Positions 45,972-48,907 of a DNA stretch of 64,000 nt are shown piece after piece. The stretch lies in the NCBI RefSeq assembly GCF_008122265.1, contig NZ_CP043042.1, forward strand, positions 2,604,001 to 2,668,000, written 5' to 3'. Within the stretch, counting starts at the first letter, position 1, and every line of letters starts with the position of its first letter. The notes under the pieces are model-generated. The model searched no databases and was not told the DNA's origin. It was given only the letters and a program-made list of their open reading frames with translations. The position numbers and the translations under genes are program-made. The DNA comes from Marinobacter fonticola. GTDB lineage: Bacteria; Pseudomonadota; Gammaproteobacteria; Pseudomonadales; Oleiphilaceae.

Positions 45972-46000
45972 TTAACTTCGTCAGGGATTTCCGCTAGAAT
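45972..46000 (+). promoter_or_regulatory. Probable acnB promoter
   Basis: TTAACT, a 17-bp spacer, TAGAAT. Transcription would start near 46007, giving a leader of about 306 nt. The whole gap from miaE to acnB (45864-46312, 449 bp) holds no large gene. Confidence 0.65.
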
Positions 46001-46015
46001 TGCGGCCCGAACTCG

Positions 46016-46131
46016 GTGTCCTGTCGGGCTAATTCATTGACTGCTGCCGGGGTCCGCGCCGCAAGCGCCTGTCGGTACTGGGATTATCCAGGCGCCTGCC
46101 AGTAGATGAATGAATTAGCCAGACGGGACAC
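46016..46131 (+). ncRNA. acnB leader, long rod hairpin 1 (possible cis-regulatory RNA)
   Basis: The arms 46016-46038 and 46109-46131 match at 21 of 23 positions (GTGTCC..GTC..GGCTAATTCATT). Inside, 46041-46046 pairs with 46100-46105 after a small internal loop, and GCGCCTG (46065-46071) pairs with CAGGCGC (46089-46095). The whole is a rod of about 116 nt starting some 10 nt after the predicted transcription start. No known RNA family was recognised; a palindromic mobile repeat is the alternative. Confidence 0.55.
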
Positions 46132-46136
46132 GCACC

Positions 46137-46158
46137 GGGGAAGCAATGATGATTCCCC
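46137..46158 (+). promoter_or_regulatory. acnB leader, hairpin 2 over the leader-ORF ribosome-binding site
   Basis: GGGGAA (46137-46142) and TTCCCC (46153-46158) form a 6-bp stem with a 10-base loop. The 5' arm is the purine-rich ribosome-binding site of the leader ORF, and the loop contains its two ATGs. Confidence 0.5.
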
Positions 46159-46199
46159 AGTCACCAATAACCCTGCTCAATGAAGGAGCCACTGAATAA
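46146..46199 (+). CDS. Possible acnB leader peptide (17 codons)
   Basis: ATG-ATG opens a frame of 17 codons ([17 protein letters not shown]) ending TAA at 46197-46199. GGGGAA is 3 bases before the first ATG and GGGGA is 7 bases before the second. The stop codon falls within the 5' arm of hairpin 3, so a terminating ribosome would open that stem. There is no run of a single regulatory codon. Translation is unproven; the case rests on the binding site and position. Confidence 0.4.
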
Positions 46200-46271
46200 G
46201 TAACTTACCCTTCCTTAGCCGCCATCTGGCGCGCCCAGGAAGGAAATGTAATCTATTTATTCAGTGCCTCC
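46185..46271 (+). promoter_or_regulatory. acnB leader, hairpin 3 (terminator-like)
   Basis: GGAG-CACTGAATAA-TA-TTAC-CCTTCCT on the 5' side pairs with AGGAAGG-GTAA-TA-TTATTCAGTG-CTCC on the 3' side with small bulges, capped by GCCGCCA/TGGCGC. It is followed by only four T, so terminator strength is doubtful. ACCCT (46207-46211) inside it could alternatively pair with the acnB ribosome-binding site AGGGT (46302-46306). Confidence 0.6.
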
Positions 46272-46312
46272 TTTTGACACCGCAGGGCATCCTAACTGAT
46301 GAGGGTCTTACC

Positions 46313-48907
46313 GTGTTAGAAGAGTACCGTAAACACGTCGAAGAGCGCGCGGCACTGGGCATTCCTCCCAAACCCCTGAACGCCGAGCAAACCGCTGCAC
46401 TGGTTGAGCTTCTGAAAACCCCGCCAGCGGGTGAAGAAGAGGAGCTGGTCTATCTGTTGGAAAACCGCATTCCGCCGGGCGTGGATGAGGCCGCCTACGT
46501 CAAGGCCGCGTTCCTCACCGCTGTCGTTAAAGATGAGGCCTCCTCGCCGCTGATCAGCAAGGAAAAGGCCGTCGAACTGCTGGGCATGATGCAGGGTGGC
46601 TACAACATCGCCACAATGGTCGACCTACTGGATAACGACGACCTGGCCAAGCTGGCTGGCGAGAAGCTGAAGAAAACCCTGCTGATGTTCGATGCCTTCA
46701 ACGACGTGAAGGAAAAGATGGATGCCGGCAACGCGGTCGCCAAGGATGTCATGGAATCGTGGGCCAACGCCGAGTGGTTCACCGGTAAGAAGAAAGTACC
46801 CGAGAGCATGAAAATGGTCGTGTTCAAGGTTACTGGCGAGACCAACACCGACGACCTATCTCCGGCTCCGGATGCCTGGTCACGTCCTGACATCCCGTTG
46901 CATGCCCGCGCAGCCTACAAAATGCCCCGTGACGGCCTGAACCCGGAAGATCCGGGCACCACTGGCCCGATGTCTCAAATCGACGAGATCAAGGACAAAG
47001 GCCTTCCCGTTGCCTTCGTCGGTGACGTTGTGGGTACCGGCTCTTCCCGTAAGTCTGCAACCAACTCCGTACTCTGGTTCTTCGGTGAAGACATGCCGGG
47101 CGTGCCCAATAAGCGCTCCGGCGGTGTCTGTATCGGCAACAAGGTGGCCCCGATCTTCTTCAACACCATGGAAGATGCCGGCGCCCTGGTTTTCGAAGCA
47201 CCGGTCGACGACATGAACATGGGCGACGTCATCGAGATCCGCCCGTACGAAGGCAAGATCCTGAATGAAGCCGGTGAGACCATCTCCGAATTTGGCTTCA
47301 AGTCCGACGTGATCCTGGACGAAGTCCAGGCCGGCGGCCGTATCCCGCTGATCATCGGCCGTGGCCTGACAACCAAGGCGCGTGAAGCCCTGAATCTGGG
47401 TGCGACCGACCTCTTCCGCCTGCCAAAAGATCCGGAAGCCGGCGAAAAAGGCTTCACCCTGGGCCAGAAAATGGTGGGCCGAGCCTGTGGCCTGGAAGAA
47501 GGCAAAGGCGTGCGTCCAGGCACCTACTGCGAGCCCGAGATGGCTACCGTGGGCTCTCAAGACACCACCGGCCCGATGACCCGTGACGAGCTGAAAGACC
47601 TAGCCTGCCTGGGCTTCCAGTCCGATCTGGTTATGCAGTCTTTCTGTCACACCGCCGCCTATCCCAAGCCGGTCGACGTGGAAATGCAACACTCCATGCC
47701 GGACTTCATCCAGACCCGTGGCGGTGTTGCCCTGCGTCCGGGCGACGGCATCATTCACTCCTGGCTGAACCGCATGCTGCTGCCGGATACCGTCGGTACC
47801 GGTGGCGACTCCCACACCCGCTTCCCGATGGGCATTTCCTTCCCCGCCGGCTCCGGGCTTGTGGCGTTTGCTGCGGCCACCGGCGTTATGCCGCTGGATA
47901 TGCCGGAGTCGGTTCTGGTGCGCTTCAAAGGCGAAATGCAGCCGGGCATCACCTTGCGCGATCTGGTCCATGCGATCCCGCTCTATGGCATCAAGCAAGG
48001 CCTGCTGACCGTCGAAAAGAAAGGCAAGATCAACGAGTTCTCCGGCCGTATCCTGGAAATCGAAGGCCTGGAGCACCTGACCGTCGAGCAGGCGTTCGAG
48101 CTGTCTGACGCCTCTGCAGAGCGCTCCGCAGCCGGTTGTACCATCAACCTGTCCGAAGACTCCGTTGCCGAGTACCTACGCTCCAACATCGTTATGCTGC
48201 GCTGGATGATCGCGGAAGGCTACGGCGATCCGCGTACGCTTGAGCGTCGCGCCAAGAAGATGGAAGAGTGGCTGGCCAGCCCGAGCCTGATGCGTGCCGA
48301 CAAGGACGCGGAATACGCCCACGTCATCGAGATCGACCTGGCCGACATCAACGAACCGATTGTCTGCTGCCCGAACGACCCGGACGATGCCAAGGTGCTG
48401 TCCGAAGTGGCTGGCGATAAGGTGGACGAAGTGTTCATCGGCTCATGCATGACCAACATTGGTCACTTCCGTGCCGCCGGTAAGCTGCTCGAGCAGCATA
48501 AAGGTCCGCTGAGCACCCGTCTGTGGATGTCTCCGCCGACCAAGATGGACCAGGCGCAACTGATGGAAGAAGGCTACTTCAACACCTACGGCACTGCCGG
48601 TGTACGGACCGAGATGCCCGGCTGCTCGCTGTGCATGGGTAACCAGGCCCGTGTGGCGGCCAAGTCCACGGTACTGTCCACCTCCACCCGTAACTTCCCC
48701 AACCGTCTGGGCGATGGCGCCAACGTGTACCTGACCTCTGCGGAACTGGCGGCTGTGGGTGCGGTTCTCGGCAAACTGCCAACACCTGCGGAGTACATGG
48801 AGTACGCCAAGGACCTGAACAGCATGTCCAAGGACATCTACAAGTACCTGAACTTCGATCAGATGGAGAAGTACACCAGCAAGGCGGCCAAGGCTTCCGT
48901 AGCCTAA
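46313..48907 (+). CDS. acnB: Aconitate hydratase B (bifunctional aconitase / 2-methylisocitrate dehydratase)
   Basis: Main TCA-cycle aconitase. The 864-residue protein has the HEAT-like N-terminus [17 protein letters not shown], then the swivel domain and the catalytic domains with [4Fe-4S] ligands Cys712 (GSCMTNIGH), Cys771 and Cys774 (GCSLCMGNQ), within two residues of E. coli AcnB. The start is GTG with GAGGG seven bases upstream; a TTG 13 codons earlier overlaps hairpin 3 and is rejected. E. coli AcnB is known to bind RNA as apo-protein, which makes the structured leader notable. Confidence 0.96.

Follow-up and report, generated by a model that had tools for sequence, protein, structure and literature searches.

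Palindromes of likely mobile origin in the acnB leader of Marinobacter and their possible role as 5' untranslated region stem-loops

Introduction

The ompA mRNA is stabilised by a stem-loop in its 5' untranslated region (UTR). Transcripts of miniature inverted-repeat transposable elements (MITEs) in Neisseria and Yersinia have been proposed to undergo RNase III cleavage or to expose RNase E sites, according to excerpts of PMC2229807, and stem-loops are named as a protection against RNase cleavage in an excerpt of PMC7509114. Closer to the organism considered here, MITEPsy1 of Pseudomonas syringae is an IS5-type MITE with CTAG or YTAA as its target, and sequences similar to a P. stutzeri homologue occur in Marinobacter aquaeolei (excerpts of PMC3189936). 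For acnB itself, the available part of PMC4150767 describes binding of Escherichia coli apo-AcnB to the acnB mRNA, in the 3' UTR, and binding of the small RNA (sRNA) RyhB to the acnB ribosome-binding site. Here, we analyze the acnB leader in a 64-kb stretch of Marinobacter fonticola DNA (contig NZ_CP043042.1, positions 2,604,001 to 2,668,000; hereafter the window), which is part of a complete 4.54-Mb chromosome. In this leader, a 116-nt rod and an 87-nt hairpin lie between a promoter-like site and the start codon of acnB. We read both as palindromes captured from mobile elements, which would serve as 5'-UTR stem-loops and probably affect mRNA life, and give this overall reading a probability of roughly 0.57; the origin is well supported, and the function is what we infer from it.

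The locus resembles each of these systems in part. With ompA-type stem-loops the 87-nt hairpin shares its strength and its expected location, a 5' UTR in which the ribosome-binding site follows the stem-loop, but it differs in its likely mobile-element origin, and a stability effect is putative here. Like MITEPsy1, which with ISPsy2 belongs to the IS5 family in excerpts of PMC3189936, the palindromes are short and non-coding, and some of them are preceded by YTAR-like target letters; the right end of MITEPsy1 contains CCTCTGAAAAAG, and the ends here are CCTCTGAAAAG or CCTCTGAATAAG. Unlike MITEPsy1 as those excerpts present it, the palindromes in this genome measure 39-114 bp, have variable centres, occur in few copies and come with no parent that we found, and one of them has been retained before acnB in two genera. 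NEMIS/Correia of Neisseria and enterobacterial ERIC, as far as the excerpts of PMC2229807 describe them, are likewise MITE palindromes transcribed with neighboring genes and have a proposed role in mRNA processing or stability; they belong to other hosts and have other ends, whereas here a single family is found at two positions within one leader, its arms being frozen. The E. coli control of acnB concerns the same gene and is also post-transcriptional, but in the available part of PMC4150767 it acts at the ribosome-binding site and the 3' UTR, and RyhB was not found in the present genome. Among the matches listed in our literature search on Marinobacter MITEs and insertion sequences, acnB leaders, and MITE or stem-loop effects on mRNA stability, from which subscription journals were mostly absent, the element was undescribed. 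MITE-like palindromes in leaders are a known kind, and their repeated capture at acnB and sthA is the part worth testing.

Results and discussion

We compared the genome of the window (G000) with five others of the same genus (G001-G005) and with G006 of another genus; upstream regions were obtained for 109 of 112 acnB loci (L001 and L002 repeat the window and L103 carries no upstream DNA), or 110 with G006. The 87-nt hairpin (46185..46271, unstranded) folds with -45.8 kcal/mol over 46184-46272 (z -8.8, 0 of 200 shuffles as good), and folds and profiles place it in a family of GGAGCCTCTGAATAA palindromes. Its 24-nt, near-invariant arms, GGAGCCACTGAATAAGTAACTTGCC and GTAATCTATTTATTCAGTGCCTCC, are found before acnB in all six same-genus genomes, where one or two letters differ, and also in G006, at inter-arm distances of 37 to 59 nt. 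A profile of the hairpin (R2) at E <= 1e-6 matched seven of the 163 genomes of the family, invariably before acnB; when 58 relatives were searched at E <= 0.05, the only additions were a 41-nt palindrome in G039 and a weak match in G051. The former (G039:C20:254727-254767, L114), from another family of the order, measures 41 bp, and its arms are perfect and its ends identical to those of the hairpin family. Conservation is concentrated in the arms: mean identity across the seven genomes was 98% in the arms, 37% in the centre, 64% at acnB third codon positions, 37% in the rest of the 5' leader (with the presence of the rod included in that value) and 29% in the spacer upstream of the promoter. 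Among the six same-genus genomes, 45 of the 48 arm sites were invariant, as against 75 of 241 fourfold-degenerate acnB sites (Fisher p 1e-16). This contrast argues that the arms are probably under selection.

The hairpin is not a unique element. Blastn found single copies in the genome of the window, and the view of the hairpin and the rod as unique was overturned by pattern and profile searches, with which dispersed relatives surfaced. A family profile (R3), whose training set included two of the copies concerned, reported nine places in this genome at E <= 0.01, eight of them besides acnB; searches over 40 genomes used stricter filters. The copies are palindromes 39-114 bp long, some near-perfect and others decayed, and are apparently intergenic. 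The eight further copies (L223-L230) lie at 1251155, 2453376, 3009154, 4018624, 609075, 195652, 1770294 and 3486336; one stands between gyrA and serC (NCBIfam), and one just upstream of an open reading frame (ORF) that by eye resembles ndk. The 87-nt hairpin is therefore a short non-coding element with terminal inverted repeats and dispersed copies, as MITEs are. Target letters of the YTAR type precede four of seven elements, L212 is flanked by TTAG and CTAG, and TAAA stands on both sides of one of the eight copies in the present genome. An exact end, GGAGCCTCTGAATAAGTC, was present a single time in 4 of 390 genomes and in none of the viral contigs; the copy in our genome is the 39-bp gyrA-serC palindrome, and the three foreign loci had no second end (<=3 mismatches) within about 1.5 kb. 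None of the other eight copies matched the flanks of 12 non-acnB places in G002-G006, which leaves the acnB copy as the one among the nine that has a counterpart at the places reported in these relatives. Family copies occupy different loci in related genomes, which is an indirect sign of mobility. Across the family, 9 of 20 pairs change on both sides, with a covariation score above all 500 shuffles, as would be expected of inverted repeats at either the DNA or the RNA level. From these sequence patterns, a mobile origin of the palindromes appears very likely.

The same family was found at a different place of the leader in other Marinobacter. At 26 further loci, the palindrome GGAGTCTCTGAATAA...TTATTCAGAGGCTCC, or a sequence much like it, follows immediately upon the expected acnB transcription start (site I), mostly after TTAA-, TCAA- or TCAG-like letters. 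In these core loci the arms are 97% and 100% identical, compared with 73% in the centre and 69% at third positions. A profile made from these palindromes (R1) matched 30 of 41 core genomes at E <= 0.05; its 15 strong matches in core genomes all lay just upstream of acnB, and further copies were seen at unrelated loci and, in seven cases, upstream of sthA. As a side observation, three Marinobacter loci (L041, L071 and L100, labeled by eye as site-I variants) carry other palindromes at this position, about 35 to 185 nt long and with ends GGGAGCCT..., which may reflect either separate decay or separate insertions.

The sthA copies belong to seven core Marinobacter genomes (L188-L191, L193, L194 and L196) and have the form GGAGCCTCTGAAAAG...CTTTTCAGAGGCTCC. 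In 7/7 the palindrome ends exactly 30 nt before the ATG, and it stands behind TATAAAAAT in four genomes and behind variants of it in three. Its arms are 95-96% identical and the third positions 65%; the identity of sthA was checked by NCBIfam in one of the seven. A far-reaching interpretation is that central metabolic genes of Marinobacter took up the family as a control hairpin of their 5' UTR on three or more occasions (behind the acnB start, inside stem P2 of the acnB leader described below, and at sthA), with arms under selection for recognition by one shared trans-acting ribonuclease or RNA-binding protein. We regard this as doubtful; if it were true, a mobile element would have seeded a small regulon in which carbon and redox genes are controlled post-transcriptionally.

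A rival account is that the palindromes are neutral relics without a function, and that their arms owe their conservation to youth, to exchange of the leader among strains or to some mutational quirk. The same families do occur elsewhere in the genome, many species lack them, the carriers are scattered on the acnB tree, and the rod arms are conserved too, though lineage-restricted. Against this stand the invariance of the hairpin arms where only 31% of fourfold sites are invariant, the scrambled centre and flanks of the same element, which are unlike a recent transfer, and the recurrence of the pattern in a second lineage at another place. We consider neutrality unlikely, and continue with captured palindromes that act in the leader.

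The rod (46016..46131, unstranded; 116 nt) appears to have a separate source, namely a dispersed palindromic MITE of about 264 bp with ends GTGTCCYGTCNGGYTAATTCRTTGAYCTACTG, of which it would be a relic. The segment 46014-46133 folds with -64.2 kcal/mol (z -5.7, 0 of 200 shuffles as good). A rod-arm pattern (<=2 mismatches) matched in 13 of 58 genomes and gave five inverted pairs about 170-240 bp apart, for example in G002 (C11), G006 (C3) and G017 (C13); a backwards control pattern gave five matches in G005 and one in G052, so that weak single matches in those two genomes may be due to chance. Complete elements of this type are palindromes, mostly of about 264 bp, whose ends run GTGTCCCGTCTGGTTAATTCGTTGAYCTACTG, and among 12 loci printed, CTAG adjoins the end on one side in four and on both sides in three. 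The rod has these ends, including the inner CAGTAGAT, and a collapsed centre, and its terminal repeats are dispersed as inverted pairs, as those of a MITE are. It is present in G002, G004 and G005 and absent from G003 and G001. Judged from sequence, the rod is a MITE relic and no designed part of a switch. The rod family also has a tandem form in G002 and forms with a 53-bp deletion in G017 (L165, L145 and L156), which make up a series of shrinking palindromes.

The leader that received these insertions can be seen in many species that lack them. Insertion-free leaders run for only about 80-90 nt from the expected start; a small hairpin (P1) and a linker precede a CCCGC/GCGGG-type stem (P2), after which come AACTGATGAGGGT and the GTG. 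In the window, P1 (46137..46158, + strand) folds with -10.3 kcal/mol over 46134-46160 (z -2.7, 4 of 200 shuffles as good), and its pairing is retained despite altered letters. P2, which was absent from the original prediction, pairs the 5' strand CCCUGC (46171..46176, +) with the 3' strand GCAGGG (46282..46287, +) and thereby encloses the 87-nt hairpin; one of its pairs is UA, UG, CG or GC. Across the seven hairpin-bearing genomes, 49 of 56 cells were paired in P1 and 42 of 42 in P2, shares that are inflated because the windows were picked for best pairing. RNAalifold on 30 insertion-free leaders recovered P2, whose two outer pairs show compensatory changes, and did not choose P1. The segment AACTGATGAGGGT (46294..46306, +), a ribosome-binding segment, was present with the same 13 letters within the last 30 nt before acnB at 74 of the 110 loci, eight of which lie outside the Marinobacter-type loci, and the last 18 nt before acnB show 95% mean identity over the seven genomes. 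This conservation exceeds the apparent need of a plain ribosome-binding site, and the segment could be an sRNA target. In the predicted fold of the leader, the 87-nt hairpin itself is not paired to this segment, and a weak hairpin covers the segment and the GTG.

We suggest the following course of events. A short structured leader, made of P1, a linker, P2 and the ribosome-binding segment, would have received mobile palindromes. In the lineage of the window, a GGAGCCTCTGAATAA-family palindrome would have landed inside P2 and become the 87-nt hairpin, and in part of the genus a second, unrelated palindrome, the rod, would have entered just past the expected transcription start. In other Marinobacter the first family would have come to lie at the different place right behind that start. 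After capture, selection would have preserved the arms, and the centres could have drifted.

Several observations weigh against this reading or limit it. The flanks of the acnB 87-nt hairpin show no target duplication, and the absence of the other copies from related genomes was judged at places reported by the profile and not from empty sites. No intact parental insertion sequence was found in the exact-end search, which a parent with diverged ends could escape; for that reason we file the hairpin as MITE-like and not as a proven IS5 derivative. The rod arms are 90-94% identical in four genomes, compared with 69% at fourfold sites, a conservation that is not fully explained by the MITE-relic interpretation; arm conservation may partly be general to leader palindromes. 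Within a lineage, the hairpin arms show next to no covariation. Masking of the ribosome-binding site may also play a regulatory part, because the consensus fold predicted for the 30 insertion-free leaders pairs this segment with GCCUUU from the P1 region. Furthermore, 32 of the 68 acnB loci in the tree are without such a hairpin, so acnB can do without it and the element is dispensable at the clade level. The seven carriers of the 87-nt type occupy three separate places in this tree; since neither G001 nor G006 falls with the other five, three changes are needed, each of them forced by well-supported branches. A single old insertion that was later lost in places, several independent insertions or a transfer of the leader may each account for this pattern, which slightly lowers the odds of our reading. 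Site I takes seven changes (at least four forced); without G006, in a tree whose bootstrap had yet to converge, the counts were six for site I and two for the 87-nt type. The trees were built on loci exclusive of the second records L047, L062 and L080 and of most non-Marinobacter loci. In the tree with G006, the acnB of G006 (L125) joins a core Marinobacter on a very long branch at an unsure place, and that of G001 (L009) stands apart from the other five genomes assigned to its genus, which may be due either to exchange between lineages or to a tree artefact.

The acnB leader had originally been predicted to be a translation-coupled switch or leader-peptide attenuator, built from the rod, the small hairpin, a 17-codon ORF and the 87-nt hairpin. 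All these parts and the GTG are present as described, their folds being compared with shuffles, and the whole leader (46006-46330) has a predicted fold of -146 kcal/mol (z -8.6, 0 of 100 shuffles as good). The structures are real, and translation coupling is an interpretation of them. The ORF (46146..46199, +) is unconserved, although in the present genome it has a possible binding site and its stop lies inside the 5' arm of the 87-nt hairpin. Its full length occurs in one of the seven hairpin-bearing genomes, namely our own. Frames sharing its stop have 16 codons in G002 and, from a TTG, 22 codons in G006; the same ATG opens 4 codons in G003, and G004, G005 and G001 have no ATG there. The start is thus missing or the frame shortened in five of six hairpin-bearing relatives, and to judge by sequence the ORF is probably not a gene. 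None of the other short frames listed in the leaders is common to all seven genomes. We also rejected a TTG-start frame inside the hairpin (...YLFS..., 5/7 genomes), which has no TTG in our genome and is truncated in G003, and a GTG-start frame in the 3' arm, which is found in 4/7 genomes only. The ACCCT of the 5' arm, proposed to pair with the ribosome-binding site, reads GCCCT in three of the six other genomes and TCCCT, GCCTG and GCCCG in the rest. An intrinsic terminator appears unlikely, as the U-run after the 87-nt hairpin is present in part of the genomes only and is unconserved. A leader-peptide mechanism is therefore very improbable. What stands of the structured leader is the conserved and constrained last hairpin; the rod as a designed part, the peptide and the anti-ribosome-binding sequence do not. 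Loss of the hairpins from close relatives, which the original prediction named as a sign against itself, is seen for the rod (in G003 and G001) and not for the 87-nt hairpin.

The promoter of the original prediction is a TTAACT-17-TAGAAT site (45972..46000, +). It has 9/12 consensus matches, and since shuffles yield 0.6 such sites on average, the match by itself is no better than chance. The site is nevertheless backed by conservation, because its region shows 71% mean identity over the seven genomes compared with 29% in the DNA just upstream. Transcription is expected to start near 46007, so that the palindromes would be part of the mRNA. The gene downstream, acnB (46313..48907, +), starts with GTG at 46313, its product is AcnB (NCBIfam TIGR00117), and the closest named acnB loci are from Marinobacter. 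An Rfam scan of the window returned four tRNAs only at the gathering score and none in the leader; a further scan for known RNAs gave two eukaryotic snoRNA matches far below the gathering score, and a plasmid collection gave nine E. coli records that match just the start of the acnB coding DNA.

A response of the leader to iron or to AcnB, through apo-AcnB or an iron sRNA, is a further conceivable reading. The identity of the gene, the E. coli interactions of apo-AcnB with acnB mRNA and of RyhB with its ribosome-binding site (excerpts of PMC4150767), and the presence of AACTGATGAGGGT at most acnB loci are in its favor. Yet the E. coli protein-binding site lies in the 3' UTR, as far as the excerpts of PMC4150767 go, and palindromes of the family also precede genes unrelated to acnB, sthA among them. 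A RyhB search of the genome of the window, with a positive E. coli control, gave no match; it did not cover other iron sRNAs. We consider an iron-responsive or AcnB-responsive leader quite improbable.

For the function of the captured palindromes, we tentatively favor an effect on mRNA life, at a little short of even chances. In this scenario, the palindrome would be transcribed as a long 5'-UTR stem-loop acting on acnB mRNA life, either by shielding the 5' region from RNase E-type decay or by serving as a processing site. A variant would be a dedicated processing element, in which RNase III or RNase E cuts the long helix and releases the downstream mRNA, by analogy with the proposal for Neisseria NEMIS. 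A 13-bp helix with a 2x2 internal loop is kept in the folds of four genomes from two genera and in the seven-genome consensus, and a precedent exists in the MITE transcripts for which RNase III cleavage or exposure of RNase E sites has been proposed (excerpts of PMC2229807); yet such an element would be expected to need a helix and not exact letters, which makes processing alone rather unlikely.

The invariance of the arms within each lineage, with little covariation, also fits a sequence-specific role or one at the DNA level. In the latter case, the arms, which by descent are transposon-like ends, would be recognized at the DNA level by a protein, either a regulator or a transposase, and the RNA hairpin would be a by-product. 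The position downstream of a promoter-like site and the variable spacing of the arms speak against such a site, and we know of no regulator for these arms. A DNA-level role is accordingly still less probable than processing, and action as RNA, with an effect on mRNA life, is the function that we would retain for the captured palindromes.

Implications

This locus suggests that a regulatory leader that looks designed can arise from transposon debris. It also carries a caution: the hairpins and small ORFs of a single leader, viewed without its relatives, may be misread as an attenuator. The acnB leader provides a measurable case of capture, in which one family entered one leader at two places in different lineages and its arms are near-fixed amid drift. 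If the arms do act on mRNA life, this would be control of a housekeeping gene seeded by MITEs, which could be tested directly in sister species of which some carry the element and others lack it.

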